From: Spirochaetota bacterium
GTDB taxonomy: Bacteria > Spirochaetota > Spirochaetia > DTKZ01
Reading direction: 5' to 3'
Assembly (NCBI GenBank): GCA_026418195.1
Contig: JAOABU010000092.1
Location: forward strand, 1 to 53,089
Length of the DNA stretch: 53,089 nt
Positions 5,923-19,478 of the stretch are shown here, piece after piece. The translations under genes and the position numbers were made by a program. The first letter of the stretch is position 1, and every line of letters begins with the position of its first letter. Below the pieces are notes generated by a model, which saw only the letters and a program-made list of their open reading frames with translations, had not been told where the DNA came from and ran no database searches.

Positions 5923-5952
5923 CACCTCATAGAACCTGTAGGCTATGAGGTG
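5923..5952 (+). promoter_or_regulatory. RNA hairpin hiding a Shine-Dalgarno
   Basis: CACCTCATAG (5923-5932) and CTATGAGGTG (5943-5952) are perfect 10-bp complements around a 10-nt loop. The 3' arm carries GAGGTG, the only ribosome-binding sequence before the ATG at 5956, and the 5' arm is its exact anti-SD. As RNA, the stem would block initiation of the radical SAM operon unless melted by temperature, a ligand or a protein. There is no U-tract, so it is not a terminator. Confidence 0.55.
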
Positions 5953-5955
5953 CTT

Positions 5956-7155
5956 ATGTGCAAGAAAACCAGAATGATCTTTCCCCAATTAGTGAAGTCC
6001 TTCCTATCCAATTATTGCATCCTGAAGGTGAAACCTACATTGAGTCTATTCCTCCTGCGGTACCTGCGGAAGTTTCGGGTAATGAACCTCGGGGGTACCT
6101 TGATCCTCCATTCCCATCTTCCCCCTTTGAACAGTAAGGCGTATACCCGGTTCGTGAAAGAACACTTGTTAGGAAAGACGGAGGGGCCTTCCCATGCGCA
6201 GATCGGGTTGACCAACGCTTGCCCACAGAACTGCAGATACTGTTACAATAAGAATCGAAAGGGCACGCCGATGGATACCGAAACGATCATCCGCTTGATC
6301 CGGGACTTGAAAGAGATGGGGATGATCTGGCTCGGATTTACTGGTGGCGAACCCCTCCTAAACAAAGAAATCGTAAGGATCACGGAGAGTGCCGGAACAA
6401 CTGTGGCATTGAAGTTGTTCACCACAGGTTGCACGTTGACGCGAGAACTTGCAAAGGACTTGCAAAGGGCGGGATTGCAGTACGTGAGTATAAGTCTGGA
6501 TCACTGGGAGGAAAGGAAACACGATGAAGCGCGGGGGTACTCCGGCGCCTTTCGGACAGCTTTAAAAGCGATCGAACTATTCAAGGAAACGACTGATCTA
6601 CATGTGAGTGTATCTTCGGTGATATCCTGGGAAATGATCCATAGTGGGCAGGTGGAGGAGTTTTTACAATTCCTCATCCGGTTGAATGTTCAGGAAGCCT
6701 GGTTGAGCGAGGTGAAACCGGCTGTCCCTGTGTATTGGGACCCTAAAACGCTATTTACCGAGGCAGACCGACGGTACCTGTGCGGACTTCAGGACAGATA
6801 CAACAAAGATCATAAAATCACGGTCAATTATCTCGGTCATTTCGAGGGAAGAGAGAATTTTGGTTGCAACGCGGGGCACAAGATGGTGTACATAGACGCG
6901 TTCGGAGAGGTGAGTCCTTGCGTGTTCACCCCCATGACCTTCGGGAACGTGCAGGAAACTCCGGTGAAAGAGCTTTTTCATCGTATGAAACAACAGTTCC
7001 CCTCGGAGGAAAGCTGCTTCATCCATCGGAACTATCCATTGTTTCAAAAGTACATGCATGGAGGAGCCATCGTTACCGAAGAAGATTCCTATGCGTTGAT
7101 GCGGGAAGTTCGGTTCGGCCCGTTCTCCCAGTTTTCCAAATTGTATTACGGATGA
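5956..7155 (+). CDS. Radical SAM protein with SPASM-like C-terminus
   Basis: A 399-residue enzyme. CPQNCRYC at about residues 89-96 is the CxxxCxxC motif that binds the SAM-cleaving [4Fe-4S] cluster. FTGGEPLL is the GGE motif contacting SAM. The C-terminal region has FGCNAG, VSPC and CFI, like auxiliary-cluster (SPASM-type) domains of enzymes that modify peptides or cofactors. ATG 5956 was chosen; a GTG at 5950 lies inside the hairpin arm. It opens a four-gene operon with ATGA or near-ATGA junctions. Its substrate cannot be read from the sequence; no small precursor peptide gene is visible nearby. Confidence 0.75.
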   Translation: MCKKTRMIFPQLVKSFLSNYCILKVKPTLSLFLLRYLRKFRVMNLGGTLILHSHLPPLNSKAYTRFVKEHLLGKTEGPSHAQIGLTNACPQNCRYCYNKNRKGTPMDTETIIRLIRDLKEMGMIWLGFTGGEPLLNKEIVRITESAGTTVALKLFTTGCTLTRELAKDLQRAGLQYVSISLDHWEERKHDEARGYSGAFRTALKAIELFKETTDLHVSVSSVISWEMIHSGQVEEFLQFLIRLNVQEAWLSEVKPAVPVYWDPKTLFTEADRRYLCGLQDRYNKDHKITVNYLGHFEGRENFGCNAGHKMVYIDAFGEVSPCVFTPMTFGNVQETPVKELFHRMKQQFPSEESCFIHRNYPLFQKYMHGGAIVTEEDSYALMREVRFGPFSQFSKLYYG

Positions 7156-7166
7156 AAGGAACAGGA

Positions 7167-7571
7167 ATGAAAGCGTATCGAATCGTTTCGTTAGGGATGG
7201 CGATCCTCTTCGCCCTTGTTGGGGGTGTGTTTCTTATCTTCCCAGGCAAAGTGCTGGAATTATTCAATTTGCTATCCCATCGTATCAGCATGGAGCCTGC
7301 ACCCGTCATAGGTTCTTCCTTCTATCTCATCCTCGCTGTTTCTTACATGTACCTAGTAACTCTTCTGGCTTTCCGCATGTACCAATATCCAGAGGATCCT
7401 TCCTTTCCCCTGTTTTTGATGCACGCTAAGCTGGTAAGCGCGGTGGTGTCCTTTGGATTCTTCATCCTAAGGCAATCCTATTTAATCTTCCTAGTGAATG
7501 GCCTCGTGGATGGTGCGATCGGCCTCTTTACCTTGTATCTCTACCGTATCGTACGGAAGAAAGGATCATGA
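7167..7571 (+). CDS. Small four-helix membrane protein
   Basis: A 134-residue protein of about four transmembrane helices (roughly residues 5-27, 48-70, 82-100, 105-125) with a basic C-terminal tail (RKKGS). I do not recognise the family. ATG 7167 is preceded by AAAGGA at good spacing. An ATG at 7152 overlapping the previous stop is possible but has no ribosome-binding site. It lies between the radical SAM enzyme and the ATC-hydrolase-like protein, overlapping the latter by 4 bp, so it probably anchors or serves that pathway. Confidence 0.6.
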   Translation: MKAYRIVSLGMAILFALVGGVFLIFPGKVLELFNLLSHRISMEPAPVIGSSFYLILAVSYMYLVTLLAFRMYQYPEDPSFPLFLMHAKLVSAVVSFGFFILRQSYLIFLVNGLVDGAIGLFTLYLYRIVRKKGS

Positions 7572-8113
7572 AGCCGATACTGTTCCTGTGCCGATGGTAC
7601 ATTCCTGTATGTTTCAAGAAACGGAAGCTTCGAGAATTGTTCGAACTTACGGCGGACGCGTTTCAGTGTGAACTACCTCCCCTTCGAAGTTTTGGGTACG
7701 AGGAGTGCTTGCAGGAATATGCCCGGTTCAGTGCCATCAACGCAGGGGAGGTGCTAACGCGACCGGCTGAGATCGAGTCGATAAAATCTAGATTGTACCG
7801 AAACGCTTTCCAAATGGGGGAATCCCTCAGAAAGAGTCTCGGGATAAAGAAGATGAACGATCTTTTATGGGTTAGTAAGATCCTGTACCGAATTCTCCGG
7901 ATCCAGTGCACGACGAATCAACAAGGTGAATGGATCATCAAAAAATGTTTCTTCAGTTCTTACTATTCACCGGGGGTGTGTCGCATTCTTTCCTCGCTAG
8001 ACGAGGGAATGGCAGCCGGACTTTCGGGCGGGGGGAGGCTCACGTTTCACGAGCGGATCACCGATGGGGAGCCCTGTTGCCGAGCGACCTTCCAAAGGGC
8101 GGGTGAAGCATGA
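7568..8113 (+). CDS. ATC-hydrolase-like cysteine protein
   Basis: A 181-residue soluble protein. The C-terminal half has spaced cysteines and a GGGRLTFHERITDGEPCC segment. This pattern recalls L-2-amino-thiazoline-4-carboxylic acid hydrolase-like proteins, a poorly characterised family often found beside redox or radical enzymes. The resemblance is from memory of the pattern and is tentative. ATGA overlaps at both ends tie it to its neighbours, implying coupled translation and a shared pathway. Confidence 0.5.
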   Translation: MKPILFLCRWYIPVCFKKRKLRELFELTADAFQCELPPLRSFGYEECLQEYARFSAINAGEVLTRPAEIESIKSRLYRNAFQMGESLRKSLGIKKMNDLLWVSKILYRILRIQCTTNQQGEWIIKKCFFSSYYSPGVCRILSSLDEGMAAGLSGGGRLTFHERITDGEPCCRATFQRAGEA

Positions 8114-9423
8114 AGAATAAAAAGCAAAGGAAGAAAAGAGCAATCGTAGTCGGAAGTGGAGCAGGTGGGGCTACCGTTGCCCGTGAACTGCAGGGGGATT
8201 TCGAGGTTACTATCCTTGAAGCAGGCAAAGAGTTTAGGCCCTTTTCATTCCCTGTAACTTTCCTGGAACATCTCCGATCATTCGGACTGTTCTTCGACGA
8301 GAGGGAAATCCAATGGGTATTCCCCGCGATGAAGGTCCGAAGGACTTCCAAAAACATGGTGTTGGTGAATGGAATTGGTACCGGAGGTACGACACCCATA
8401 GCTACGGGTAATGCGATTCGTCTTGACGAGGAATTGAAGAGGTTGGGGATAGACCTCGATCCGGAGTTCCACGAGCTCTCTCAGGAACTTCCCATTTCAA
8501 CCGAGCATGAGCATCATTGGAATCCCACGACCAAGTACCTGTTCCAGCTATGTAAAGACCTTGGATTAGATCCTCAACCTACTCCAAAGATGGGAACCTA
8601 CGCTCAGTGTCGCCATTGCGGCCGCTGTGTGTTCGGGTGTCCTTATGGAATCAAATGGGACAGCAGACGATTTCTTCACGATGCACTTGCAAAAGGAGCC
8701 CAGCTTCATACAGGGCAGAGGGTTGAACGGATCGTGATACAGGACGCTCGAGCGCAGGGAGTCATTGCAGGGAATCGATTCGCTTCGCAGTTCTACCCTG
8801 CCGATCTGATCGTGCTATCCGCCGGAGGATTAGGGACCCCCGAAATACTGGAGCGCTCGGGAATCCCTTGCCAACCTCGACTTTTCGTGGACCCTGTTCT
8901 GTGTGTAGCTGCAGAATGGGGGGAAGCGAACCAACATACAGAGCTCGCCATGCCTTTTTACTTCCAGCAGGATCGATTCATGGTGTCCCCCTATTTCGAT
9001 TATCTAAGTTTCTTCTTCAATAAAAGTTGGCGTAAACCTGCATCCCGGATCGTAAGTTGGATGATCAAATTGTCCGACAGGAATGAAGGAACGATCTATG
9101 GGAGGAAGGTACATAAGGGGCTTACTGAGCCGGATCAAAGGTCTCTTACAGAAGGGATGGACCTCTGCCTTGAATTGTTCGGAAAGATGGGTGTACAGAG
9201 GGACGAGGTATTCCTGGGAACCCTCAATGCTGGGCATCCGGGGGGGATGCTACCCTTAACAGAAAAGGAAGCTGTCTCGCTCCGGCCTGCTGGATTACCC
9301 GAAAATGTGTACGTTGCCGATGCTACCCTTCTGCCAAAATCTCCAGGCGGTCCGCCGATTCTTACCATCATGGCTTTGGCGAAAAAGATAAGCATTGTGA
9401 TTCAGTCTCGGTGCAACTCATAA
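8110..9423 (+). CDS. GMC-family FAD oxidoreductase with a cysteine cluster
   Basis: A 437-residue flavoenzyme. The dinucleotide-binding loop GSGAGGATVARE sits near residues 15-26, and the GMC-type C-terminus shows VADATLLPKSPGGPP. An insertion near residues 167-178 reads CRHCGRCVFGCPYG, four cysteines in ferredoxin-like spacing, seen in GMC relatives of anaerobes that probably carry an Fe-S cluster. The usual C-terminal His-Asn pair of glucose-methanol-choline oxidases is not obvious. It may oxidise an alcohol or act as a dehydrogenase on the radical SAM pathway product. Last gene of its operon. Confidence 0.7.
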   Translation: MKNKKQRKKRAIVVGSGAGGATVARELQGDFEVTILEAGKEFRPFSFPVTFLEHLRSFGLFFDEREIQWVFPAMKVRRTSKNMVLVNGIGTGGTTPIATGNAIRLDEELKRLGIDLDPEFHELSQELPISTEHEHHWNPTTKYLFQLCKDLGLDPQPTPKMGTYAQCRHCGRCVFGCPYGIKWDSRRFLHDALAKGAQLHTGQRVERIVIQDARAQGVIAGNRFASQFYPADLIVLSAGGLGTPEILERSGIPCQPRLFVDPVLCVAAEWGEANQHTELAMPFYFQQDRFMVSPYFDYLSFFFNKSWRKPASRIVSWMIKLSDRNEGTIYGRKVHKGLTEPDQRSLTEGMDLCLELFGKMGVQRDEVFLGTLNAGHPGGMLPLTEKEAVSLRPAGLPENVYVADATLLPKSPGGPPILTIMALAKKISIVIQSRCNS

Positions 9424-10192
9424 AAACGATACACTGGAACGCTTCTGGAAGCAGAATGAGGTTGAAGGCTTTGAACCTGCCAGGATAAAGGAGGAACACA
9501 AGGAACGGAACCTTGTACGGACAGCCAGAGGAGAGTATGAGGCCGAGGTTACTGGTATCTTGCGGTTCACCGCCGAACGTAGGGAGGATTTCCCTCTCGT
9601 AGGAGACTGGGTGTCGATCACCGTATACGAGGGTGGGCTTGCCATCATCCATCGGATTTTTCCCAGATTTTCCCTGCTTAAACGGAAGGCTGTCGGAAAG
9701 GTCGGAGAAGTCCAGGTGATGGCTGCAAATATTGATTACGCATTCCTGATCCAAGCGGCAGACAGAGATTTTAACCTGAACAGGCTGGAGCGATACCTCA
9801 CCATCTGCAATACTTCCCAGGTCCCATCCTGGTCTTGAGTGAGATCGATCAGATCGAGACAGATGAACTGTCAGATCTGATGGAGAGAATCCAACCAATA
9901 AGGAATGTCACTGGACACGGCTTGGACACCCTACGAAGCAGAATCGAAACGATCAGCCAGCATTCGAGGAAAGGTCGGTATATTACCAGTCACCGGGCGC
10001 TAGCGTTTGGCCGGAGATTGCAGATTCAAAGATTGCTCCCATACGAATGAAATAGGTTGTGCTGTCCTGGAGGCGTTACAGAGGAGTGAAATAGACGAAG
10101 AAGCCTACCGCAATTATCTATATTTCGAATCTAGCCTTGCAGAAATACGGCGAACAACCGGAAGGTTGGTTCTCGAGTTGACGTATTCCTAA
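9411..10192 (+). pseudogene. rsgA: rsgA (ribosome-associated GTPase) remnant
   Basis: Pieces of RsgA run in order but in shifting frames. The GTG at 9411 begins QLIKTIHWNA; FWKQNEVEGFEPARIKEEHK follows after a frameshift; then the OB-fold (FPLVGDWVSITVYE) and DYAFLIQAADRDFNLNRLERYL. Another shift precedes LVLSEIDQI. NVTGHGLDTLRSRI is followed directly by SRKGRYITSHR, so the P-loop (normally GxSGVGKS) is gone. A second deletion removes the DTPG region before the zinc knuckle CRFKDCSHTNEIGC. The product cannot bind GTP. RsgA is non-essential in many bacteria and a second intact copy may exist elsewhere. Confidence 0.85.
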
Positions 10193-10251
10193 TAAATTTT
10201 TTCAAGTTTTTGAAGCAACTCCTCCTTCTTTTCTGTAGATAAGAGCAGAGA

Positions 10252-10268
10252 CACCCTTTGTAAGGGTG
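10252..10268 (+). other. Short hairpin before the giant gene
   Basis: CACCCTT (10252-10258) and AAGGGTG (10262-10268) pair perfectly around a 3-nt loop, 24 nt before the ATG at 10293. It may affect mRNA stability or initiation. No U-tract follows. Confidence 0.35.
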
Positions 10269-10292
10269 CATCTAGGTGGTTTGGAGGAGGAG

Positions 10293-13200
10293 ATGGTAGT
10301 TCGAAGGTTGTGGTACATCTGGGTGGTGCTACTGTTCTGGGGACTAGTTCGTATCCAGAGTTGGGATCGTTCTACTCTGTGGCAGGAACGGAGCAAAATT
10401 AGCAGACAAGAGTTCCTAGTGTTCATGACGGCAACTGAACGCTCTGAAAATCCCGCGCTATGGGGTCAGTCTCTGGAAAAGGTTTTATCCATGCAACCAG
10501 AATGGGAACGAACGTCCTTGCTCGCGGAGTATGAACAACGGTTTAGTCGCTGGATCCAACAGGAATGGGAACGCAACGTACCGAAAGCTCCCCTAGAGGA
10601 TCTTGTTCGTGAGGTAGCTTGGGCAAATCACACATACACGTTAAGGACGGATGAAACAGGAAGAACTCTATTCGATGACAAAGGGGACCCTCTATTCAAA
10701 GGAATGGATGGATTTGAATCGGATGAAATGGCTTGGAAAGGTCAGGTAGAAACGAAACGAGAAGCCCTTCTATCGAAGTGGGAACATCAGGCCCGTATAG
10801 AATGCCAAGAACTCCTCTCTTCCTTCTCTCCTAACCTGAAAGATCTTGCGGAAACGCACCTTTCCGTTTGCTTAGCGGAGTATAAAAAAGGGATCGAACG
10901 GGAGTTCGATCGATTGGTCCAACAGGGTACAACCCGGTTTCTCCAAGGTCGATTACAGGACAATTTTTCTCTTCGTCGGAAGAGCGAGGGAACAACTGCA
11001 GAGGCTGTGGCCGTATCCCTCCTTACAAAGACTGAAGAGGATCTGCGAACTGTGACCCAACGGTTGATTGGAGAGTTGCCTAAGGGAAAGGAAGGATCGA
11101 TCGAGATTCATCTGGATTCTACCCAATGGCAGGAGGAGTTCAAACGGGAATTCGCGCAGGGGATGGCTACCTGGAAACGGGTGGAAGAACGGTTTTTACA
11201 GGAGCGCCTTCTCTGGGAAGAAAAGGCTCAGGCCAGTTACCTGGAATCCGAGAAAGCTTGGGAGAGATCCTTCGAGGAGTTTGGAAAGAGGCGGGAAACC
11301 TGGTTAAAGGAGATGCGTTCTCTATTGGAGATAGGACGAAACGCATGGAAGGAACAGGAGGATTCCTTTCTTAAGGAGTATAAGCGAGAGTTAGAAATAG
11401 TGGGATTTTCGGTAGATAGTGAATTAGGAAAGTTTAAACAAGAAGCGGAGAGTCAGCTATCCATATACAAAAAGAGTCTAGAACTTGTGGAGATGGCAGA
11501 GGAGAATGGAAATCTCATTCAGGATGAGTTAAACCGGTTATCTGTTCGGGTGGATAGCTTGAACAATGAAATCGCCATGTTCCAGTCAGAGGTGTCTTTG
11601 AAAGAGTCGAAAATCGAATCCATTCTTTTACAACTGCCTACCAAGTTTCGTTCCTGTACGGATGCAGACGCGGTAGATTACACGATTCTTGAATATGATT
11701 GGGATACACGAAGATGGTATGGGGCTTTCATCGAGTTCCTAGAACGTTCGGGATATGAACTGATCTGGCTTTCCGGAAGTGATGGATCGGATTATCCATT
11801 CTACGAGCCTGCCGTGAAAGGAGGCATCCCCTGGGCTGCCGTGCGTCTGTTCAATGAAGGAGTTCATCAGGAAGAGTTGTCTTCCCTGCGGATGGAAATC
11901 TGTGCGTTGCAGGATCGAGAGTTGAATCCAAGGATAGCAGAACGGGATGAAATCCAACACCAGAAGATTCCACCTCTACAGCAGGATCTCTTCTATTGGA
12001 TGGGTTCGGGAGGAATTCGGGATCGATTCGAAGCTACGAGGATGGAAGCCGTTCGATCCCTCTATGATCTTGCCTTCGAAGCTTCTCGGTATGGTTCGAA
12101 TCAAGTGAAAGATTCCCCCTTAGACCGAGAGATTGATAGGGTTCGGCAGGTATTGAGTTTGGAAGAAAAGCAGCTTGCTATAGTTCAGGAGGTATTTACG
12201 TATGCGCAGGACTCTAGCTCGAATCGACCTACGGATTCCCAAACCGCGCGATCTTTGGAGCAGGCTCAGGAGCGATTCTCCAAGGCAGAGGAAGAGTACA
12301 GGAACGCATTACATCTGTTGGAAAGACACTTGTCTATAACCATCGGAGCAGCCCAGCAGGAAGCTTCCCGGGCTAAGGAAGAAATGACAAAAGCACTGAA
12401 CGCTCTGAAAGAGGTACAAAAAGCCTACGAGGAAGCTTTGTCTGTGTATCGTTCGGGGAGTATCACGCTCCTCTCTACGTTGATCGACGAGTATGGTCGG
12501 AACATTTCTACCTACTATGGCGATGGGGAAGGAAGCAGGAAGGGAGCGTGGGAACGCTATATAGCAGGAATGGAATACATTCATAGGCAGGAGGTATTCC
12601 AGCAGGCGACCCAAATTATCCGGGATCTGGAAGGGGAAGGGGATTTCGATGAGTTCCCCGATCTAGAGGTTCTTCGTCAAAGAGTGGAGGTGCTTAAAGA
12701 CCTTTTCGTTCCCTGGGATAGCGGGATCGATCCATCTACTTTTGCCCTTCAGTTGACGATGGAAGGGGTATCGAAAGAAAAGGTAGAGACAATACAAGAA
12801 CTTTACCGCTTAGGGATAGAGGGAAATGCCCTAGCCAGATGGAAAGCAGAGGCGGTACTGGAAGGGGTTAAACAGGAAGCATCCCTATCTTTATTCCAAG
12901 CCGAACAGATCCGGCAGTTCCTGCTTCTAGATCCCTTCTGTGCGGAGGAAGGAGCAGAATACCTGAAAGAACTATCCAAAAATGAAAAGGATGCGGAAGC
13001 CTCCTATTGGGTGTCCCGGTTAAGGAAGGAAAAGGAAGCTATATCCTTTATTCTGGATGCGGATTCCGGAGTAGGATGGGAAGCAAAGGAGCTATCTTTA
13101 CTGATTCGTTCCTATGGAGGATGTACGTATCAGGGTGATAGGAATCGGCTACAAGAATTGGAACAGATACTAGAACTGGTGAAGGAGAAAGGCTATCTGG

Positions 13201-16200
13201 ACGTGGAGATCTTGAAAGAGGTGGGAAGCCGATCTCCATTTTCTTGGGAAGGAGCGGAAGCGGAAGGAGTAGGAATTGAAGCGTACAGGCCCGATGGTAC
13301 GGGGGTCTACGGGACAGGTCTCCACGGGATAGATTTAGTGGAACTGTTTTGCGGAAGGGAATGGCTTGACTGGGAAAAGGCTCATATTCAATCCGAGATA
13401 GCTCGAGGGTATGCGCATCTGTCCAGAGTTCTGGCAAAATACGAGCGAAAAGAACTGTCGGATAGAATTCAAGAGGCGATCAAGGGAGTGGATTTTTCTT
13501 CTAGAAATGGATTGACAGCTTTCCTTCTATCCCTTCCGAATCATGAGCGTTTACCTTCCTATTTAATCGAAGCGCTGTCGAGGGTGACTGCCTTATCGAT
13601 TTTTATCCATGGGCAGGATCCTTTCTCCCTTGTGCAGGATATGGTGAATTCCTTCAACGAAAGCGGATCTTTGGATCGCTCAGGTATCGATTACCTCGAG
13701 GACACGAAGGAGGCGGCTAAAAGCCTTTCCCTCGGAGAAACAGTACATGGTTGTTCCTTACCTACCCGTTCTATCATGGGGGACTTGTCTGCGTACCGGA
13801 ACATTCTTCAAATAGCCCTTAGGGTCTTTGCCCAGGAATGGTCGATCCAGGCTCTAACGATGGAAGAAGCCCGTTTTAGAAGGGAGGTGGCGCTGGGAGG
13901 AGAGAGGGAGATCCTGAACTGGGAGCACGCATACGCAAGACTTATGGATGAGATAAAGATTCTTCAGGAAGGAAGGGAACGATACAGGGAACAAGTGCTG
14001 GATCGAAAACGGGAGGAACTGAATCAAGCTAGTCGGTTTGCTGAAGAGAGTAGATTAAGGTACGCAGATGCATTGAAGACGTGTGCCGAGGATTCCAAGG
14101 TGTACGAAGCTCTTCTGTCTGATGCAAACGATGCAAAAGCTAGGTACACGGAAGCCCGGTATGATCGGGATCGAGCAGAAGCGATCTACCAATATGCTTC
14201 CGCGGGGTATGTACTTCCTGGTTTTACACCTGAAGAGCTTCTGGCGGAACGTACCAACAGAGTGGAAGAGCTTCGGTGGGTTTTGAAGAAGTTGAATGAC
14301 CTTCACACCCTAGGACAGGATCCTTTTGCCGAACGAATGGACCCGACCTATAGGGCTGCCATGGTACAGGAACAAACCTGGATGGAATGCATCCAGTACC
14401 TCACGAAAGCAAAGGAAGCAATTCAGAAAGAATCTGCTTCCCTCCAGAGAAAAATCCTTCAAGTAGTGTCCAGTATGGACTACCAAATTCGTAAGGTGTT
14501 CGAGTTTCGACAGTACCGGGAATCTGAAGGGGAGGATCCCCTTTCCTTCATCGTAGATCCTCGCTATGAAGCATCCCATTTCTTCATGGATCTACGAACA
14601 GAGGATGAGGCCTTATTCGCTCAGAGGGTAAACGAGTATTTTGGATGCGAATCGTTAGAAGTATCCCAACGACTCTCCACCGATGTAGTGAACTGGATCA
14701 AAAGGGTTGTAAGCCAGGGGAATACCAAGGAATTGCTTAGGCAATTTGGCCTTGCCTACTATTACGATACGATTGTGCAAGGTGATCTCCAGATCGAAGG
14801 AGCACCTCCCATTGTTTCGAGCTTATTACAGGATCCTAGTTGGAACAAACTCATAGAAGATTATGTAGATCTAGGCCCTGTTTCTATCCCCATCTACGAA
14901 TACTCAGGAGATGATGCTATGCAGGTGGGGTATGAAATCTACTACCCGGAGTATCGTTGGACTGTAGAGGATTATATAGCATCAAAGACTAGGGAGTTCT
15001 ACCAGGGTATTCGAACGAACGGAGAACTTTGGCCATTATATTCCTTCTATAAAATGATGATGGCTACCCACAATATGAAGGTGGGGACTACCTATATCGG
15101 GAAGGATTTAGGGGATCTGGTGTTCTCCCATGTAGACACCTTAGCGGAAAAAAAACAGAAAAGTTATCTGAAATGGTGGAAGTTCTGGACCCATGCGGAA
15201 GGACGGAGGATCCGAGCTCTTCGTCAGGACATTGACCAGGTTCATGATACTGGACAAGGGGAACGGGAAGATTTAGCGCAAAGGATGGAGGCAATTGTGT
15301 CTTTGGAAATGGAGCGGTCTTCCCAACAGGCTCTATTGAACCACATCACCTCCCATGGACAGGACCTAACCCTAGATCGGTTCCTCGCTCTATTGGAAGA
15401 AAAGGCAGGTTCCCCTGTGGATCCCACTTTGGGTCGCACGATTGCAGAACTGTTCCAGACAGTGGATGTAGGACAGAAACAGGAGACTCGTTCTTTTCTT
15501 GAAGCTGTACAGCAGGGGATTCTGTTCCGGATTCAGTACAGTCAAAAGGTAACCCATGATCGTGCAATCCAATTATCCAATGAGAGGAATGCTATCTACG
15601 ATCGTTTCCGTACGCTTTTAGAACAGGTAAGAACCGGAAACATACCCGGCTCTCGTGCAAGAGAAGAACTGGAAAACCTCTTAGAGTCCCTGTTTGGGAA
15701 TCCATCCTTCAGTTGGGATGATCATTATGCCGCGAGCCTCCAATTGGTGGAAACAGTAAAGGCTCCTACCCGAGCAGGTTGGACAATCAAATTAGAGGAA
15801 ATAACCGAGAGGGCTTTGGCAATGTTTCAGGGACGGATGGAAACGATCCAGGATCAGGAACGGTTCCAGGCTCAAAGAGAGTTCTCTCTTCTTAAAGAGA
15901 AACAGCAACAGTGGGAATCGCAGATGGAAACTCTCTTTCGGACCGGAACAGCCCAATGGAAAGAGCATTCAGTACGACTCTATGGGATGCGAAAGAGGTG
16001 GCAGGAAGAGTATGCTGCTGAGTTCGAAGCACGAAAACGTCTTTGGGAGGGAAAGTATGCTCTCCTTGTTCAGAACCGGAAAGAGTGGGTAGAGCTACTC
16101 TGTAGAGAGGCGGTTGCTGCAGCTATCGAAGGCATGGGTAAACTGTATGGAATAGAACGAAGCCGCCTTCTGTCCGAGATCGATCAAGTTCGGATCCCAG

Positions 16201-19200
16201 ACCTATCATTTGAAACGTACGGTACCCCTCAGGACACCTTGTGTAGGATCGTTCAGGATGCCTTTGGTGGACAGGGGATGGATACAGTTTTAATGCAGGC
16301 AGGTTGGATTACAAGTCGAATCGGGAAAGAGAAGCCTATTCTTACAGCCTTTTTACCGAGGTTACGGGACACATCAGAAGCTTTAAAGCAAGCAGAACGG
16401 TTTGCAGAAGGGATTGGAGACGAAATTTATCGGAAAGCAAGCTTAGTGGCAGCGTTGAAAATGGGTAAAATCGTGGAAGATGCGCAGACTGATGTGAAGG
16501 AGAAGATCCTAGAAGCCAACCAGCGGGTGGAAAGGAACGTTACGGACACATTACGAGGTGCGGGGTATCAGCGGGATGGGAAGCTCTTTATCCGGAGAGC
16601 GGTGATCGATGAGACCTTGCTTGGGGGCATTGAACGAGAAACGCAAAAAATAGAGGGGTACCGGTATTTTCAGGCCCCGTATTTTCACGGCAAGGTAGAC
16701 TTGAGTCGTGGGGCACTGGAAGGAAGAAGTGGGGATCACATCCAAGCCATGGTAAAGATGGCTCAGGGAGAACTATCTAGGTACCTGGAACTAATCTTTG
16801 GACGGAAGGGGAATGCAAGCTGGAGCTGGGAAGGGGTGGAAAATCTTAAAGAACTATTTTTAGAAGCAGAGCAAAGGTATCAGAGTTCGGGAGGGTATGA
16901 ACGAAAGGGATTGGATGGGACCTTGTTAAACCAGTCAGACGGCCTCTTTCACTGGCATGTAGGGTTCGTACCCTTAATGGATCCAGGCAACCCTGAAGTG
17001 GTGAAAGAGGAGGGGTATGGAGAGATGGGACGGATCTTTGCCCTCTTTTTCCGCAACCAAGCTCGGCAACAACGGGGACTAGCTAGTTTCGATGTGGCGT
17101 GGTACAGCCGTAAACTCTGGGATGATGATCGGGACAATGATGGGAAGAGCGATGGAGTCCTATCTTCTCCTACGATTCGGAGCTTAACGAACTTGGCTGT
17201 TTCAATAGCTTCGACGACTTGCATGAGTCCCTGGGCAGCTTCTGCATTGAACCTGGTGGATGATGCCCTGTTTACGGCCATGGATGCAGGGAATTGGAGA
17301 ATCCGTTGGGGTGAAGGGATGCAAAACCTGGCAAAACAGGCAGGGTTAGATGTACTTACCATGGGTATCGGACTATCGGGTTCTTCTCTAGATCGAGCCC
17401 TGGATTTTGGGAAAGGGTTTGAAGGAGCTTTGCTAGAAGTGGGGTCGGATCTGGGGATCGCTTCGATGAAAACGATCGCCCAATCGTATGGTACTGGAAC
17501 CATGGAAGCCCTCTGGGCAGGCAAAACAAAAGTGAATCTGGATTGGAACGATGTGGGAAGTACATTAGGAGTCGAACTGGTTCGTACGGGAGTTCAGAGT
17601 GGACTTCAAGCAACCCTTCGAGGGTACGTCGGTCAAACACTATCCCATGGGAACTCCTTGAACGCGTTGGTGGGAAACCTTTCAGCCAATGCGACGGAGT
17701 ACGCTCTTAAGGGTACTACCCAGTTCAATCTTATCAATGCCCGTATGTTCGGGGAAGATGTGTCCGGAGGTCTCCTGGAGTTTACCCTAGGTGGAAAGGG
17801 AGGGCCTTGTTTTGGTCTCGGTCAAGGAGGCACCGATATCAGTCTTGGCATTCTCACTCAAGGTCTCAAAGGTGTGGACGCGTACTACCAAAACTTTCGA
17901 ATGGTGAAAGAAGGGATTCGGGATGATCTCGCCACTGCCATGCGAGTTCTTTACTCCAGCGGCCAAGACGAAGGGCGTCGGTTGTATGAAGAGATTTTGA
18001 ATGGAACGAGCAGAATCGTGCAGGAACAGAATACCGAATATGATGCGTTCACCGAGTGGGATCCGGAAAATCAGGTACGGGTGGTGCGAGTCAATTCCCA
18101 AGGCCTTTATTCGAACGGAGGAAAAAACTCAGACCTAGCATTGGGAGTGGTGTTGAGTCATGAATCTTTTAGGAATGGTTGGGTAGATGGCGAGGATTTC
18201 CAGAAATACGAGACCGAACGAGCAGTGCGAGGTCATATGGCGGTTGCTACCCAAGTAGCGCTATCGTACGGAACAGACGTGCTGGATGAGAAGTTGAAAC
18301 GAGAAGTTGAGCTTTTCAAAGCTACTCTTGCCTCAGGATCCATCCGTGCCCTCCAAACCTACATTGCCCAAGGATATGAGAGCAGCAAGGATTACTGGAA
18401 GCTTCTTCGGGATGGGACACTGATCAATGATGGCAAGGGTCATCTCTTGATGGAAATCCTGAATGACGATGGAACCCAAGGTTGGCAACTGGTTCAGGGG
18501 AGTGAACAGGAACACAGCGTAGCAGCGGGTCTGGTGCACTATCTGGGAAAGGAACGCGCCTTAGCACTTTTGGGGAATGACCCATCTAACATTGATCTTT
18601 ATGACTCCCAAACGCTGAAAGACGTTCTGAAGGTGAGTGACCAGGAAATCCAACTGATGCAGAGGAATCCCTCATACGCAATGAATCGACTGAAGGGAAT
18701 GGGAGCGGCGGAACTGGAAAAGTTGGTGGGGGAGGCACTGATGAAGAGAGCGGGAATTCGATGGGATGCTATAAAGAGAGTTTGGGAAGGAGAGGGGACT
18801 GGTATTCGAATCACAGATTCCATCCTCCCCGGAAATGCAGCCATCCGATCCCTTGGAGGCAAAGAGTACGAACGGTTTTGCATCACTTCCGAGATTGTTC
18901 GACAGGAGGGGGCGTATTCAGTGTGGATGGATGGGAACCCTGGACACGTGGGATCTGGGAATACCAGTATCCTTGTCCGGAAATGGAATCTGGATTCGGG
19001 TAAAGTGGTGCAAACCTATAGAGCTGAGGGATCCTGGAATTCCGTGGATAATAGCTATGGACAGAAGGATTGGAATGGGAATCCCATCGGGGTCCACCAG
19101 CCGTACCAGCTGGTTGGAGGCCCCCTAGTCCAAGGAAACACTCTGGCAGCCGGAGCATTGAATCTCCGATGGGCTCAAAATGATAGCCGAAATTTCAAAG

Positions 19201-19478
19201 AAGTTCTTATCATGTCCGACACGAAAACCATTTCAGGGGAACGGATTCTGTCCAGCGGGTTTGGGGAAGATCATCCGGCTGAAGGGAAATGGTTGGTCCA
19301 CTACACGGGGTATGGAACGAGCGATGGATGTATCGTTTCTGTGGGAGAGGAAAGTATGAAAAAGTTAATGACTGCTCTCAAAGCTATGGGAGCAACTAGA
19401 GGATACGTGATCTCTTCCCGATTGGAGGATCGTAACCGCTTCGTTCAAGGCCCTGGATACAAGAAAGGTAATTGGTGA
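10293..19478 (+). CDS. Giant exported coiled-coil protein (TIGR04388-like C-terminus)
   Basis: A 3,061-residue protein. The start at 10293 follows GGAGGAGGAG directly, and the first residues (RRLWYIWVVLLFWGLV) form a signal anchor. Long stretches rich in Glu, Gln, Arg and Lys (around residues 270-450, 640-730, 1190-1310 and 1830-1950) look like extended coiled coil with regular W-E-x-x repeats. From about residue 2,100 the sequence becomes globular, with NLVDDALFTAMDAGN, LKGTTQFNLINA and GQGGTDISLG, reminiscent of the Leptospira TIGR04388 giant surface proteins. The end has HYTGYGTSDGCI near residue 3,005, like the Ser-x-Gly-Cys segments of murein-acting L,D-transpeptidase-type or phage peptidase domains. 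A structural envelope role is inference. Confidence 0.75.
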   Translation: MVVRRLWYIWVVLLFWGLVRIQSWDRSTLWQERSKISRQEFLVFMTATERSENPALWGQSLEKVLSMQPEWERTSLLAEYEQRFSRWIQQEWERNVPKAPLEDLVREVAWANHTYTLRTDETGRTLFDDKGDPLFKGMDGFESDEMAWKGQVETKREALLSKWEHQARIECQELLSSFSPNLKDLAETHLSVCLAEYKKGIEREFDRLVQQGTTRFLQGRLQDNFSLRRKSEGTTAEAVAVSLLTKTEEDLRTVTQRLIGELPKGKEGSIEIHLDSTQWQEEFKREFAQGMATWKRVEERFLQERLLWEEKAQASYLESEKAWERSFEEFGKRRETWLKEMRSLLEIGRNAWKEQEDSFLKEYKRELEIVGFSVDSELGKFKQEAESQLSIYKKSLELVEMAEENGNLIQDELNRLSVRVDSLNNEIAMFQSEVSLKESKIESILLQLPTKFRSCTDADAVDYTILEYDWDTRRWYGAFIEFLERSGYELIWLSGSDGSDYPFYEPAVKGGIPWAAVRLFNEGVHQEELSSLRMEICALQDRELNPRIAERDEIQHQKIPPLQQDLFYWMGSGGIRDRFEATRMEAVRSLYDLAFEASRYGSNQVKDSPLDREIDRVRQVLSLEEKQLAIVQEVFTYAQDSSSNRPTDSQTARSLEQAQERFSKAEEEYRNALHLLERHLSITIGAAQQEASRAKEEMTKALNALKEVQKAYEEALSVYRSGSITLLSTLIDEYGRNISTYYGDGEGSRKGAWERYIAGMEYIHRQEVFQQATQIIRDLEGEGDFDEFPDLEVLRQRVEVLKDLFVPWDSGIDPSTFALQLTMEGVSKEKVETIQELYRLGIEGNALARWKAEAVLEGVKQEASLSLFQAEQIRQFLLLDPFCAEEGAEYLKELSKNEKDAEASYWVSRLRKEKEAISFILDADSGVGWEAKELSLLIRSYGGCTYQGDRNRLQELEQILELVKEKGYLDVEILKEVGSRSPFSWEGAEAEGVGIEAYRPDGTGVYGTGLHGIDLVELFCGREWLDWEKAHIQSEIARGYAHLSRVLAKYERKELSDRIQEAIKGVDFSSRNGLTAFLLSLPNHERLPSYLIEALSRVTALSIFIHGQDPFSLVQDMVNSFNESGSLDRSGIDYLEDTKEAAKSLSLGETVHGCSLPTRSIMGDLSAYRNILQIALRVFAQEWSIQALTMEEARFRREVALGGEREILNWEHAYARLMDEIKILQEGRERYREQVLDRKREELNQASRFAEESRLRYADALKTCAEDSKVYEALLSDANDAKARYTEARYDRDRAEAIYQYASAGYVLPGFTPEELLAERTNRVEELRWVLKKLNDLHTLGQDPFAERMDPTYRAAMVQEQTWMECIQYLTKAKEAIQKESASLQRKILQVVSSMDYQIRKVFEFRQYRESEGEDPLSFIVDPRYEASHFFMDLRTEDEALFAQRVNEYFGCESLEVSQRLSTDVVNWIKRVVSQGNTKELLRQFGLAYYYDTIVQGDLQIEGAPPIVSSLLQDPSWNKLIEDYVDLGPVSIPIYEYSGDDAMQVGYEIYYPEYRWTVEDYIASKTREFYQGIRTNGELWPLYSFYKMMMATHNMKVGTTYIGKDLGDLVFSHVDTLAEKKQKSYLKWWKFWTHAEGRRIRALRQDIDQVHDTGQGEREDLAQRMEAIVSLEMERSSQQALLNHITSHGQDLTLDRFLALLEEKAGSPVDPTLGRTIAELFQTVDVGQKQETRSFLEAVQQGILFRIQYSQKVTHDRAIQLSNERNAIYDRFRTLLEQVRTGNIPGSRAREELENLLESLFGNPSFSWDDHYAASLQLVETVKAPTRAGWTIKLEEITERALAMFQGRMETIQDQERFQAQREFSLLKEKQQQWESQMETLFRTGTAQWKEHSVRLYGMRKRWQEEYAAEFEARKRLWEGKYALLVQNRKEWVELLCREAVAAAIEGMGKLYGIERSRLLSEIDQVRIPDLSFETYGTPQDTLCRIVQDAFGGQGMDTVLMQAGWITSRIGKEKPILTAFLPRLRDTSEALKQAERFAEGIGDEIYRKASLVAALKMGKIVEDAQTDVKEKILEANQRVERNVTDTLRGAGYQRDGKLFIRRAVIDETLLGGIERETQKIEGYRYFQAPYFHGKVDLSRGALEGRSGDHIQAMVKMAQGELSRYLELIFGRKGNASWSWEGVENLKELFLEAEQRYQSSGGYERKGLDGTLLNQSDGLFHWHVGFVPLMDPGNPEVVKEEGYGEMGRIFALFFRNQARQQRGLASFDVAWYSRKLWDDDRDNDGKSDGVLSSPTIRSLTNLAVSIASTTCMSPWAASALNLVDDALFTAMDAGNWRIRWGEGMQNLAKQAGLDVLTMGIGLSGSSLDRALDFGKGFEGALLEVGSDLGIASMKTIAQSYGTGTMEALWAGKTKVNLDWNDVGSTLGVELVRTGVQSGLQATLRGYVGQTLSHGNSLNALVGNLSANATEYALKGTTQFNLINARMFGEDVSGGLLEFTLGGKGGPCFGLGQGGTDISLGILTQGLKGVDAYYQNFRMVKEGIRDDLATAMRVLYSSGQDEGRRLYEEILNGTSRIVQEQNTEYDAFTEWDPENQVRVVRVNSQGLYSNGGKNSDLALGVVLSHESFRNGWVDGEDFQKYETERAVRGHMAVATQVALSYGTDVLDEKLKREVELFKATLASGSIRALQTYIAQGYESSKDYWKLLRDGTLINDGKGHLLMEILNDDGTQGWQLVQGSEQEHSVAAGLVHYLGKERALALLGNDPSNIDLYDSQTLKDVLKVSDQEIQLMQRNPSYAMNRLKGMGAAELEKLVGEALMKRAGIRWDAIKRVWEGEGTGIRITDSILPGNAAIRSLGGKEYERFCITSEIVRQEGAYSVWMDGNPGHVGSGNTSILVRKWNLDSGKVVQTYRAEGSWNSVDNSYGQKDWNGNPIGVHQPYQLVGGPLVQGNTLAAGALNLRWAQNDSRNFKEVLIMSDTKTISGERILSSGFGEDHPAEGKWLVHYTGYGTSDGCIVSVGEESMKKLMTALKAMGATRGYVISSRLEDRNRFVQGPGYKKGNW

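Follow-up and report, generated by a model that had tools for sequence, protein, structure and literature searches.

The window analysed here is a 53,089-nucleotide stretch of DNA from a Spirochaetota bacterium (contig JAOABU010000092.1, positions 1 to 53,089), and the subject is a set of four adjoining genes within it that encode a radical S-adenosylmethionine (SAM) enzyme, a small membrane protein, a protein resembling L-2-amino-thiazoline-4-carboxylate (ATC) hydrolase and a flavoprotein of the GMC oxidoreductase family. The same four genes occur in the same order at 20 loci, the window included, and for that reason the arrangement is not a product of chance. The function of the unit can be suggested only tentatively: with a probability somewhat short of even, the quartet constitutes a membrane-associated pathway that builds or tailors a hydrophobic, lipid-like small molecule, with radical chemistry followed by flavin and iron-sulphur (Fe-S) redox chemistry.

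A four-gene unit that recurs across lineages

A first-pass annotation of the window had described a radical SAM enzyme, a four-helix membrane protein, an ATC-like protein and a GMC oxidoreductase as a tightly joined set. This description was borne out, since all four genes lie on the + strand and each of the three junctions is a 4-base overlap:

5950-7155, + strand: radical SAM enzyme gene, with a GTG start at 5950 and an ATG at 5956 that is an equally possible start
7152-7571, + strand: membrane protein gene (139 residues, about four hydrophobic helices, without a family match)
7568-8113, + strand: ATC-like gene, product V4R/Bet3-like in predicted fold (181 residues; invariant C127, C138, D145, R163 and C171)
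8110-9423, + strand: GMC flavoprotein gene (437 residues; predicted Fe-S motif CRHCGRCVFGCP, C167/C170/C173/C177; invariant NAGH376PGG)

When 84,980 species genomes were scanned with the GMC protein, 64 related loci were recovered, and at seven of them all four quartet genes are present in the same order. Whole-genome searches added one quartet from the window genus and four from the Clostridia phylum, while the phylum containing 'USDV_metabat.161' (the USDV phylum) holds seven further complete quartets and one that ends at a contig edge. Three lineages therefore carry the unit, namely the window genus, Bacillota and the USDV phylum; locus L005, from a record titled 'Calditrichales bacterium MX18-03', was counted under Bacillota because its phylum-mates are identical to those of the Clostridia locus L052, the record probably being misnamed. 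Carriage is confined to two of the four genomes of the window genus, and the radical SAM gene is present in 9 of 82 USDV-phylum genomes; Candidatus Formimonas warabiya, a named species whose chromosome is complete, is also a carrier. Flanking genes are dissimilar at almost every locus, and the pairwise identities of the four proteins co-vary (r 0.87-0.96 over 120 pairs). The gene-neighbourhood check proposed in the first-pass annotation thus identifies a recurring system, its order kept across lineages despite differing flanks, as opposed to an arrangement unique to the window. Within the phylum of the window, the only close relatives of the GMC protein that were found belong to the window genus; another genome of the phylum encodes a 34%-identical GMC protein (L096:4237-6848) near genes resembling those for an FAD-linked oxidase and an Fe-S oxidoreductase.

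The annotation had also stated that no named pathway has this composition, and that statement stands. None of the four proteins reached an NCBIfam cut-off, none of the four families matched a curated pathway model above cut-off, the membrane protein returned zero matches in the Pfam scan, and a literature search on the four-gene combination found no description. The protein families are themselves known; the combination, its alternative front ends (see below) and the pathway were found neither in curated models nor in the literature search. A defence-system reading was dropped, PADLOC giving only generic viperin-like radical SAM scores.

In a tree of the radical SAM proteins, all 20 quartet members are set apart from distant relatives, and those of the window genus are nested among USDV-phylum copies (support 97/94 in a ten-row set and 95/96 in a five-row set). 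It is this nesting that suggests horizontal acquisition of the quartet by the window genus. The guanine-plus-cytosine (GC) content of the quartet equals that of the host and so does not point to recent transfer. In the corresponding GMC tree the quartet proteins cluster (93/99), separately from the GMC proteins of a second operon type.

Component proteins and gene contexts

The radical SAM protein matches Pfam Radical_SAM at 77.4 bits (cut-off 29.5) and carries the CxxxCxxC signature of the superfamily as CPQNCRYC, in which C91, C95 and C98 are invariant. Its labelling as 'SPASM-type' in the first-pass annotation holds in part: Pfam SPASM scored 30.3 bits (cut-off 21.5), but the invariant cysteines after the radical SAM core are only C306, C324 and C356, rather than the full set of about seven. 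Because only these three are invariant, the auxiliary region resembles a twitch domain more than a complete SPASM domain with seven cysteines. An N-terminal extension of about 80 residues is conserved, with the motif HSHLP..NSKAY..RF, and at locus L045 the C-terminus of the enzyme and the membrane protein are fused in one reading frame. Identification of the enzyme as AhbD or NirJ was dropped, the NCBIfam scores being below cut-off. The same N-terminal extension is present in a distant relative (L097, ~26% identity) whose neighbours are ketosynthase, acyl carrier protein, SPT/BioF-like, lipid kinase and OleD/HpnA-like reductase genes, and four other distant relatives (L141, L143, L145 and L146) adjoin paired methyltransferase genes. 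Across those four loci and L147, which together span two phyla, the distant relative is accompanied by one or two SAM-methyltransferase genes and sometimes by an alpha/beta hydrolase gene. The contexts of the distant relatives favour small or lipid-like molecules, though they are remote.

The GMC protein was assigned to its family on domain score (Pfam GMC_oxred_N, 81.3 bits, above cut-off) and on fold, and its catalytic histidine, H376, is invariant. The cysteine cluster to which the annotation had drawn attention is present, as C167-x2-C170-x2-C173-x3-C177 followed by P, with all four cysteines invariant in 29 GMC homologues. Its position can now be stated more sharply, in that a family-profile alignment places C167/C173/C177 at Cys212/Cys218/Cys222 of Burkholderia flavin adenine dinucleotide (FAD) glucose dehydrogenase, residues that coordinate the [3Fe-4S] cluster of that enzyme (PMC6719666). 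On this alignment the cluster appears to be the positional homologue of an established Fe-S site, and the fourth motif residue, Cys170, could allow a [4Fe-4S] cluster. The predicted structure (predicted local distance difference test, pLDDT, 91.5) returned Fe-S fructose and glucose dehydrogenases as the top fold matches, with a Foldseek value of 2.5e-24 to fructose dehydrogenase. Gamma and cytochrome c subunits lie outside the four-gene unit, and none was recognised among the neighbours, not all of which were scanned with family models. Identification of the GMC protein as MftG was dropped on the basis of a sub-threshold NCBIfam score.

The Pfam ATC_hydrolase family (PF14196) matches residues 72-174 of the ATC-like protein at 16.6 bits, under the cut-off of 28.1, and C127, C138, C171, D145 and R163 are invariant across 36 ATC-like sequences from both operon types. 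A search of the Protein Data Bank with the sequence profile returned nothing significant, and the fold search alone was informative: the predicted structure (pLDDT 95) resembles TRAPPC3/Bet3, one of the matching entries having palmitate bound, as well as the V4R domains of the phenol sensors PoxR and MopR, with H-NOX matching more weakly. The Foldseek probability was 1.00, but with a template modelling (TM) score of ~0.5 and an E value of ~5e-4. The presumed ligands of V4R domains are hydrophobic (PMC2253512). Similarity among the HNOB, V4R and ATC hydrolase domains has been reported, V4R and ATC hydrolase having a three-Cys cluster in common (PMC5847659). Given a match under cut-off and a V4R/Bet3-like fold, the name 'ATC hydrolase' used in the first-pass annotation should not be taken to imply an enzymatic function. 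Judging from the model, ligand binding or acyl handling is a more likely role than thiazoline hydrolysis, and the protein is probably a hydrophobic-ligand binder.

The ATC-like and GMC genes also occur together without the other two. At 35 loci, mostly in Lachnospiraceae/Clostridiales metagenome-assembled genomes (MAGs), many of them from rumen or gut, they follow in that order a gene for a ligase-reductase, in which a thioester-reductase-type NAD_binding_4 domain is fused to an AMP-binding acyl ligase; a polysaccharide-pyruvyl-transferase-like gene precedes the ligase-reductase in 15 of the 35. Locus L008 (3310-9356) and about 35 similar loci illustrate the arrangement of pyruvyl-transferase-like, ligase-reductase, ATC-like and GMC genes, an operon of which no description was found. 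At none of the loci do the two front ends occur together, and a search of 399 genomes of the Clostridia phylum for further operon contexts of ATC homologues returned quartets only. Since the pair recurs behind the ligase-reductase in place of the radical SAM and membrane protein genes, it is a reusable core with two alternative front ends.

A gene for a phytoene-desaturase/CrtISO-like flavoprotein lies directly upstream of the quartet in L006, L052 and L088; in L089 one gene intervenes, and a short C-terminal remnant is present in L003. Most quartet genomes that lack such a gene nearby have no close copy elsewhere, and the flavoprotein is at best an optional partner of the quartet. On the 3' side of the window quartet, rsgA, for a ribosome GTPase, directly follows the GMC gene (9420-10195) and is decayed, its reading frame broken in places and its P-loop region lost; the gene is intact at the same-genus quartet locus (L087:7075-8130), and a second, more distant RsgA (32% identity) is encoded elsewhere in the window genome (G000:C111). 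The Clostridia MAG at L045 likewise has rsgA (9472-10551) directly after its quartet, although the two quartets are not close relatives. Beyond rsgA, window positions 10266-19478 encode a 3070-residue protein without a Pfam or NCBIfam match above cut-off, a partial homologue of which follows the same-genus quartet (L087:3-7010).

A possible lipid-tailoring pathway and its alternatives

The lipid-like pathway is proposed on the basis of the order and co-divergence of the quartet, the L045 fusion, the alignment of the Fe-S cysteines, the fold matches of the GMC and ATC-like proteins, the V4R literature cited above, the ligase-reductase operons that share the ATC-GMC core, the phytoene-desaturase-like neighbours, the lipid-type and methyltransferase contexts of the distant radical SAM proteins (L097 among them), and the want of a conserved precursor-peptide open reading frame (ORF). 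From these we infer a substrate, an order of reactions and a set of electron partners. The V4R/Bet3-like protein would hold a greasy substrate or intermediate in a hydrophobic pocket, with its three-Cys cluster perhaps serving as a metal or thioester site. The four-helix protein, fused to the radical SAM enzyme in one genome, may keep that enzyme at the membrane, where the latter would generate a 5'-deoxyadenosyl radical and so activate an unreactive C-H bond, its three-Cys auxiliary cluster binding the substrate or carrying electrons. The product could then undergo a two-electron redox step at the GMC protein; if the aligned cysteines do form a cluster, the protein may pass electrons singly through it to an acceptor. 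In Lachnospiraceae and their relatives, the same core would be fed instead by the acyl-AMP ligase-thioester reductase. The nature of that front end suggests that the intermediates passing through the core are long-chain acyl, aldehyde or alcohol species, and acyl chains would be the natural common currency of both operon types.

Several observations weigh against this proposal. The position of the second GMC catalytic residue, usually Asn or His, is occupied by G in the window genus, the window included, by N in most other homologues and by Y, L or S in a few, so ordinary alcohol oxidation by the protein is not assured. The ATC-like protein has moderate fold matches (TM ~0.5, 9-19% identity), the distant radical SAM relatives are far off (~26% identity for L097) and varied in context, and the phytoene-desaturase-like proteins of Clostridia and the USDV phylum are only ~26% identical, so that their neighbourhood may be coincidental.

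The V4R-like protein might alternatively bind a phenol, quinone or porphyrin-type ligand as opposed to an acyl chain, with the quartet modifying an aromatic, quinone or tetrapyrrole compound. The MopR/PoxR and weaker H-NOX fold matches, the radical SAM scores against the AhbD/NirJ heme-pathway models and the methyltransferase genes beside distant relatives are all consistent with this, but those scores are far under cut-off, no tetrapyrrole or quinone genes were recognised beside the quartets read, and the ligase-reductase sister operon points toward carboxylic or acyl substrates; this alternative is accordingly considered improbable. Somewhat less probable again is a redox-cofactor pathway of the mycofactocin or pyrroloquinoline quinone kind, in which the radical SAM/SPASM enzyme builds a small cofactor that the GMC protein re-oxidises, as MftG does with mycofactocinol. 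MftG couples mycofactocin oxidation to respiration (PMC11778925) and its models are the nearest to the GMC protein in NCBIfam, and PqqE and mycofactocin models are among the radical SAM matches. All of these scores are far under cut-off (for MftC, 55.5 bits against 265) and generic to the superfamilies, however, and the cluster lacks a precursor peptide, a PqqD-like RiPP recognition element (RRE) and an MftE- or glycosyltransferase-like gene, while ligase-reductase operons have the ATC-GMC core although they are devoid of any radical SAM gene.

Equally doubtful is the idea of a mobile, horizontally gained cassette for the breakdown or detoxification of a hydrophobic compound from the environment. 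The patchy distribution, the nesting of the window genus inside another phylum and the TetR-like genes near copies L005, L006 and L052 would fit such a cassette, whereas genes for transport or for downstream degradation do not recur near the quartet, whose GC content is that of the host. A plasmid-borne form was dropped, since no plasmid record carries the quartet and the sole plasmid match is a GMC protein of 28% identity. Maturation of a ribosomally synthesised and post-translationally modified peptide (RiPP) encoded elsewhere is very improbable. Peptide maturation is common among SPASM radical SAM enzymes, and generic RiPP-maturase matches were obtained; yet, as the first-pass annotation had noted for the window, there is no obvious precursor, and no conserved small ORF was found in the 900 bp before or the 700 bp after 16 quartets, which makes a small molecule a likelier substrate than a peptide. 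Moreover, no peptidase, RRE or transporter gene recurs, and the N-terminal extension is shared with the radical SAM relative of the fatty-acid-type cluster at L097.

The lipid-like pathway could feasibly be extended to a novel class of radical SAM lipid modification in anaerobes, in which a V4R/Bet3-like acyl carrier and an Fe-S GMC core operate with either front end to yield a new class of lipid. This wider proposal is unlikely as it stands, but if the product is a lipid, the quartet would offer a new route to anaerobic lipid diversity. In any event, the quartet is a compact, coherent unit common to distant lineages, apparently exchanged horizontally and without a curated pathway match, and it couples radical chemistry, a probable Fe-S flavoenzyme and a ligand-binding-type protein whose fold resembles Bet3, a component of the eukaryotic TRAPP complex. 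The occurrence of two front ends on one core makes its function testable.

Relation to known systems

The quartet radical SAM enzyme has in common with AhbD, NirJ, PqqE and MoaA-type enzymes a CxxxCxxC core and an auxiliary-cluster domain, but differs in scoring far below all of the equivalog cut-offs, in its distinct N-terminal extension and in having three auxiliary cysteines. The ATC-like protein has weak profile similarity to L-2-amino-thiazoline-4-carboxylate hydrolase (PF14196), whereas the genes near it show no sign of cysteine or thiazoline metabolism. Its likeness to V4R, Bet3 (TRAPPC3) and MopR-PoxR domains lies in predicted fold and three conserved cysteines; in contrast to these, it has no sequence match above cut-off and is a stand-alone operon protein, not a sensor or tether.

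MftG, the mycofactocin dehydrogenase, is like the quartet GMC protein a short flavoprotein encoded with a SPASM radical SAM enzyme, and is its best NCBIfam match, but at 47.4 bits against a cut-off of 400, and the cluster has neither the mycofactocin precursor nor the rest of the mft genes. The large subunits of FAD glucose and fructose dehydrogenases share with the quartet protein the GMC fold, and three of its cysteines lie at the 3Fe-4S ligand positions of the glucose dehydrogenase. The quartet protein is only ~12-15% identical to them, is about 100 residues shorter and has a fourth motif cysteine, and where those enzymes have a gamma 'hitchhiker' subunit and a cytochrome c, its operon partners are a radical SAM enzyme and a V4R-like protein.

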